From assembly GCA_024277725.1 (NCBI GenBank), contig JAJRUP010000079.1:1-36250 (forward strand): DNA of 36,250 bases. The letters are read 5' to 3'. Source of the DNA: a bacterium (lineage in GTDB: Bacteria; CG2-30-53-67). The notes beneath the pieces were generated by a model that saw only the letters and a list, made by a program, of their open reading frames with translations, was not told the DNA's origin and ran no database searches. This document shows, piece after piece, positions 1 to 24,422 of the stretch; the stretch's first letter is position 1, and each line of letters opens with the position of its first letter. The translations under genes and the position numbers were made by a program.

Positions 1-110
1 AGGATGTTCGGACGACCATGATCTACACCCATGTGATCAGCAAGGGGGGCAGGGGAGTGCGGAGTCCTCTCGACGGGATGGCCGCCCGTGAAAGTTCATC
101 CCCGGCGTGA
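1..110 (+). CDS. intI: Integron integrase (tyrosine recombinase), C-terminal end only
   Basis: The reading frame is open from base 3 to the TGA at 108-110 and encodes about 35 residues, so the rest of the gene lies left of the window. The tail contains TTMIYTH, with the nucleophilic tyrosine of tyrosine recombinases, followed by [10 protein letters not shown]. That second motif is the characteristic C-terminus of integron integrases (class 1 IntI ends in a very similar GVRSPLD motif) rather than of XerC/XerD. The ORF track misses it because the start is outside. In most integrons intI is divergent from its cassettes, which would place attI and any array left of this window. I saw no convincing attC site in the 420 bases to the right. 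The family call is from a short but diagnostic stretch. Confidence 0.8.
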
Positions 111-534
111 TCCTTTTCTTCGGTGTCCCACCGTAGCCATGTAGACGATGAATTCCTTCTTCCCATCCATAGGGCCCTTCTTGGGGTCGCGCCTACAGTG
201 CACATATTGAGAAAAACTGTCTGACCGCATCCGGATAAATGTGCAATGTGTCGGCCTGGAGTTGACCGGGGCCGGCAACAGCGCCGTCTGCTTACGCGAG
301 AGGAACCCGCAGGATGAGTTTCGAGGCTGTTGTGAAGAAGAGTACAATGTGGTCGGAAAAACAAGATGGTCTCGTAAAAAGTCATTTTCGCCGCAATCAT
401 ACAATAAACGGAACTTTTAAATCGCTGGATTTCAAAAAATCCCCGTGGTTGACTCTCCCCGTTGGATCGATTAGAATGACCGGGTCTTGTGGTCCTGCGC
501 TGTGTTTTCAGCAGGCCCGGAGAGGGGAGACCGG
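111..534. other. Intergenic region after intI, no supported gene
   Basis: This stretch of 424 bases holds only overlapping low-quality ORFs on both strands, none with a convincing ribosome binding site or recognisable protein. I looked for integron attC core sites (RYYYAAC paired with GTTRRRY) and found no credible pair. Around 366-385 is TGGTCTCGTAAAAAGTC, which looks like half of a short intergenic repeat, but no inverted partner is present. The last 20 bases carry the GAGAGGGGA ribosome binding site of the next gene. Confidence 0.5.
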
Positions 535-24198: not shown

Positions 24199-24422
24199 TT
24201 TCATATCCTTACGGAAAACATGAATGAAAAGCGGGGCATGCTGCAGGCGCAACCCGCAGGCGGATTTTTTGCGCAGCCGTCGAATTTCATTCATCATAGA
24301 GGAGGAAGGGGGGGAAATCAATACGGAAAATCAATGACCGGAAAAGGAATGCTCGTGGGAACACTTCGGTAATCGGGTATTCAGGAAATTTGAATAGAAA
24401 CACTCCCGGGTTTTTGAGAAGC

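Follow-up and report, generated by a model that had tools for sequence, protein, structure and literature searches.

The left edge of the contig studied here raises a simple question: is the short reading frame found there the end of an integron integrase (IntI) and, if so, does it belong to a working integron or to a stranded gene? Integron integrases are tyrosine recombinases that join attI and attC sites, capturing and shuffling gene cassettes. The window, by which we mean the whole stretch of DNA that was analysed, is the entire contig (C31, 36,250 bases), and window base 1 is contig base 1. The source genome (G000) spans 2.92 Mb in 252 contigs and is 99.4% complete.

The contig starts inside an integron integrase gene

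Translation of the window gives an open frame on the forward strand (positions 3–110) that comprises the last 35 codons and the stop codon of a gene. The preliminary description had called attention to TMIYTH and GVRSPLD in this tail, and both motifs are indeed encoded in frame, at residues 5–10 and 18–24 of the 35-residue peptide. From the R-H-R-Y catalytic set, the contig carries only the tyrosine, within TMIYTH. Frames of intI that extend a few residues beyond SPLD, as this one does, are not abnormal.

We compared the peptide with the NCBIfam models (hmmscan). Only two families matched, TIGR02249 (E = 2.4e-8) and NF011946 (E = 9e-6), and both are integron integrase. The TIGR02249 alignment covers the last 26 columns of the model (290–315 of 315) and so extends past the catalytic-tyrosine motif into the region by which an IntI C-terminus is recognized. 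The sole match in the PDB was the C-terminus of the Vibrio integrase IntI4 (2a3v, E = 1e-3, phmmer), and the best plasmid matches were IntI1 (62% over 34 residues, tblastn). Relative to the 20 most similar IntI tails, the difference rates at the three codon positions were 0.21, 0.16 and 0.63; this concentration at third positions is the pattern of coding sequence, although the comparison tails were picked by protein similarity, a choice that favours a coding-like result.

The gene is cut short because the contig starts inside it, and the integron-insert region and the 5' part fall off the contig, to the left of base 1. A TIGR02249 search of the genome retrieved no intI body on the other contigs of the bin; the only intI pieces were the C31 tail and a second tail at C218:5540–5629. 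Judged from its sequence, the stretch from base 1 to base 110 is truly the end of an integron integrase gene, and its setting is chromosomal. For the off-contig portion, we infer that it carried the integron insert and that the gene was once active. The tail belongs to a known family, in which it is unremarkable, and owes its truncation to the assembly; the window contributes little more than a further truncated example.

Debris and conserved chromosome to the right of the tail

The first 520 bases hold fragments and repeats. A C-terminal fragment of a nitroreductase-like gene (~23 codons, positions 96–170, reverse strand) meets the intI frame tail to tail, and the two ends overlap. The fragment has 86% DNA identity to C117:4239–4315 (tblastn, 83% over 23 residues, E = 5e-7), and the full paralogue lies at C117:4242–4994 of the same genome. 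In the loci of relatives that we examined, a nitroreductase was found next to neither intI nor the first gene. Two short dispersed repeats follow on the forward strand. The first (positions 303–362, core ATGAGTTTCGAGGCTG) has near copies on C29 and C19 and occurs at six places in the genome with ≤ 2 mismatches, against none for the reversed control. Its copy on C19 is flanked by the arms ACAGCCTCGA and TCGAGGCTGT, which could form a hairpin. The second (GATGGTCTCGTAAAAAGTC, positions 366–384, core 368–383) has nine exact core copies in G000, 26 in the congener G001 and one in G002, with 0 for the reversed control, and several of the copies sit at contig ends. The genus has these dispersed repeats in common. 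No Rfam match was found in the window.

From base 521 to base 24,199 the gene order is that of the congener contig G001:C55, in collinear blastn blocks of 75–83% identity; this is a conserved chromosomal stretch outside the integron. Among the genes checked there are those for a TPR/peptidase protein, an ABC1-type kinase, PASTA and GAF-GGDEF proteins, a semialdehyde dehydrogenase, a PmbA/TldD protein and a dicarboxylate symporter, and the domains are housekeeping. The sole tandem array in the window measures 27 bases. In G001 the first gene is preceded by coaE, which in G000 is located on C154 beside an S4-domain gene. We had considered pairing C31 with a contig ending in coaE; this placement of coaE, with its changed gene order, yields no such pairing. 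At the end of C154 (L051, 16190–16313), reading by eye picked out an apparent transposase gene start (MKLYTAFDLHSSN..). Because homology to G001 begins only at base 521 and coaE is elsewhere in G000, the first 520 bases lie at a rearrangement point.

These results narrow a suggestion of the preliminary description, that repeats and broken genes to the right of the tail could reflect a mobile neighbourhood. Two dispersed repeats and debris do exist within the first 520 bases, but the idea of a mobile region beyond them fails against the collinear 521–24,199 segment, its housekeeping genes, the single 27-base array and the empty attC scan described below. The first 520 bases are breakpoint debris, and no mobile region reaches to the right.

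Intact, truncated and gutted intI copies in the phylum

We placed the tail in the context of CG2-30-53-67, which published work treats as a candidate phylum (PMC11406059) and which is represented by eight genomes in our collection, G000 included. G000 is assigned to it through its stated kinship, at the level of the family, with G005. Full-length IntI above the curated cut-off was detected in four of the seven other genomes, and a fifth has an N-terminally truncated frame. The full-length proteins carry the integron-specific insert around patch III, between motifs II and III, and for one of them an alignment with IntI4 runs over the full length. In G002 and G004, intI comes after a conserved thiC. 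Immediately behind intI, and in the same orientation, lies a gene for an HNH nuclease in G002:C30 (L041, 11052–11726) and one for an EcoRV-family restriction endonuclease in G004:C20 (L042, 236–2066).

The second intI of G000, on C218, is gutted. Read by eye, its sequence has the start MQPPRPQK, then MNAFLTHLAV and then the end; large parts of the interior are deleted, and the frame changes. The congener contig G001:C28 has an intI with an internal deletion. The two relics (G000:C218:5506–5821, L018; G001:C28:5196–5890, L044) are homologous and lie in different places. The gutted C218 copy indicates that integron integrases decayed in G000, and together with the deleted copy in G001 it indicates that decay of intI is usual here. 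Close relatives show intact, truncated and gutted copies side by side, and a small candidate phylum joins the hosts of integron integrases; a limited literature search found no earlier report.

Cassettes and attachment sites

We searched for cassettes with an attC pattern scan that includes the R and L boxes. The scan recovers array-like sites in other integrons and recovered one of the two sites in a class 1 control. It found no attC in the window and nothing above shuffled expectation in the related genomes, and classical attC scans of the relatives' flanks were empty. Within the phylum, a single canonical attC-like site was found (L155, 128–187). It lies at a contig edge, on G007:C18, and this genome, a member of the same class, gives no strong IntI match. 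A looser scan did no better than shuffles in the phylum; it did pick up sites with attC-type cores downstream of IntI in L057, L058, L063, L067 and L108. Nor was any attI-like site seen downstream of the tail in the window, where nitroreductase debris is found instead.

The relics on C218 and G001:C28 give a different picture. Downstream of intI they share TTATACAGACTGTATAATCATTGTT, homology stops at a GTT core, and the sequence after it differs. This arrangement is what would be expected of an attI site that held different cassettes in the two places. Treponema integrons have intI transcribed toward attI (PMC3607928). One relic pair and two neighbourhoods would be consistent with a Treponema-like layout in the phylum, with cassettes after the integrase, and we offer this as a suggestion only. 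The preliminary description had placed a possible cassette array just to the left of the window; this may name the wrong side, since some IntI of the phylum may have their cassettes downstream. An extended version of the idea is that CG2-30-53-67 has integrons of its own, Treponema-like, with attI after intI, and that repeated decay leaves intI tails at rearrangement points, so that the relics would mark former cassette platforms. We regard this as speculative and rather doubtful.

Interpretation of the intI tail

We take the tail for the 3' terminus of an intI gene on the chromosome, cut by the contig edge, and think it most likely, with a probability of about 0.65, that this copy is stranded or decaying and lacks cassettes. 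If complete, the gene would encode a tyrosine recombinase that joins attI and attC in cassette capture and shuffling. The copy at the edge of C31 would then have become stranded or begun to decay, its lack of cassettes being presumed. The stranded or decaying state is favoured because the tail is followed by debris, namely the last part of a nitroreductase gene and the dispersed repeats, at a point of changed gene order and neither attI-like nor attC sites were seen. Two observations temper this reading. The 35 visible residues are undisrupted, and the gene could be intact past the edge; and the attC scan missed one of the two class 1 control sites, which weakens the cassette-less part.

The strongest rival is an intact and active chromosomal integron in the classical divergent layout, with the full intI continuing leftward and attI and the array upstream, lost since repeats break assemblies. 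Cassette arrays often drop out of metagenome bins, and many other IntI loci have a contig end near the integrase. The undisrupted, coding-like tail and the full-length IntI of relatives also fit an active integron. Against it, the canonical attC pattern is absent from the whole 2.92 Mb bin, and in G002, G004 and G005 the attC scan upstream of IntI did not exceed shuffled expectation. We therefore judge an active integron unlikely, and a stranded copy more likely than a working integron.

Another tyrosine recombinase without the insert, whether XerC/D, phage-borne or solo, could in principle resemble IntI by chance at its end, since the contig does not reach the insert region and SPFD or SPLD is also the ending of some patch-less recombinases. 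In other genomes, the patch-less recombinases have the ending TTEIYTHVSK..I.SPFD/SPLD, unlike the tail peptide, and the insert-less L029 and L143 pair their SPFD or SPLD with TTEIYTHVSK and lack GG.GV. The Xer-like proteins of G000 match the integron model only to column ~308 or earlier and lack columns ~181–237, the insert region. With insert-less tails devoid of TMIYTH and GG.GV, and Xer matches stopping at column 308, the tail is IntI-like beyond its last few residues. XerC or XerD identity was rejected: the tail has a GG.GV.SPLD-type end, where the Xer-like paralogues of G000 have no match. Only seven phage records matched the tail. The best two are class 1 integrases, and the top phage hits as a group consist of class 1 integrases and of annotated integrases whose records bear integrons. 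A chance resemblance is accordingly very improbable, and the earlier assignment to a chromosomal integron integrase rather than XerC/D stands, the only matching models being those of integron integrases.

That the first few hundred bases were wrongly joined to the contig in assembly or binning, as their place at the contig edge, beside a gene fragment and before the start of G001 synteny at base 521, might hint, is equally hard to credit when the nitroreductase fragment has its paralogue on C117 of the same genome, the dispersed repeats are common within the genus and intI is present in most genomes of the phylum.

Comparison with known systems

With its intI and no canonical attC found in its own genome, the locus resembles a solo intI or In0. 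It differs in that most of the window's intI, along with the region upstream of it, lies beyond the contig, so we do not apply the label In0. The likeness to the Treponema-type integron (PMC3607928) lies in the variable side downstream of intI in G001:C28, G002, G004 and C218 and in the GTT break of the two relics, whereas the window tail is followed by nitroreductase debris with no attI-like site and no attC seen. Compared with IntI4 (PDB 2a3v) and the class 1 integrase IntI1, the window provides the last 35 residues only, and the insert and the catalytic core, save for the tyrosine of TMIYTH, are off the contig. What is visible shares the C-terminal motif of both proteins, with the similarity to IntI1 given above, and a full-length IntI from its phylum mates aligns with IntI4 end to end.
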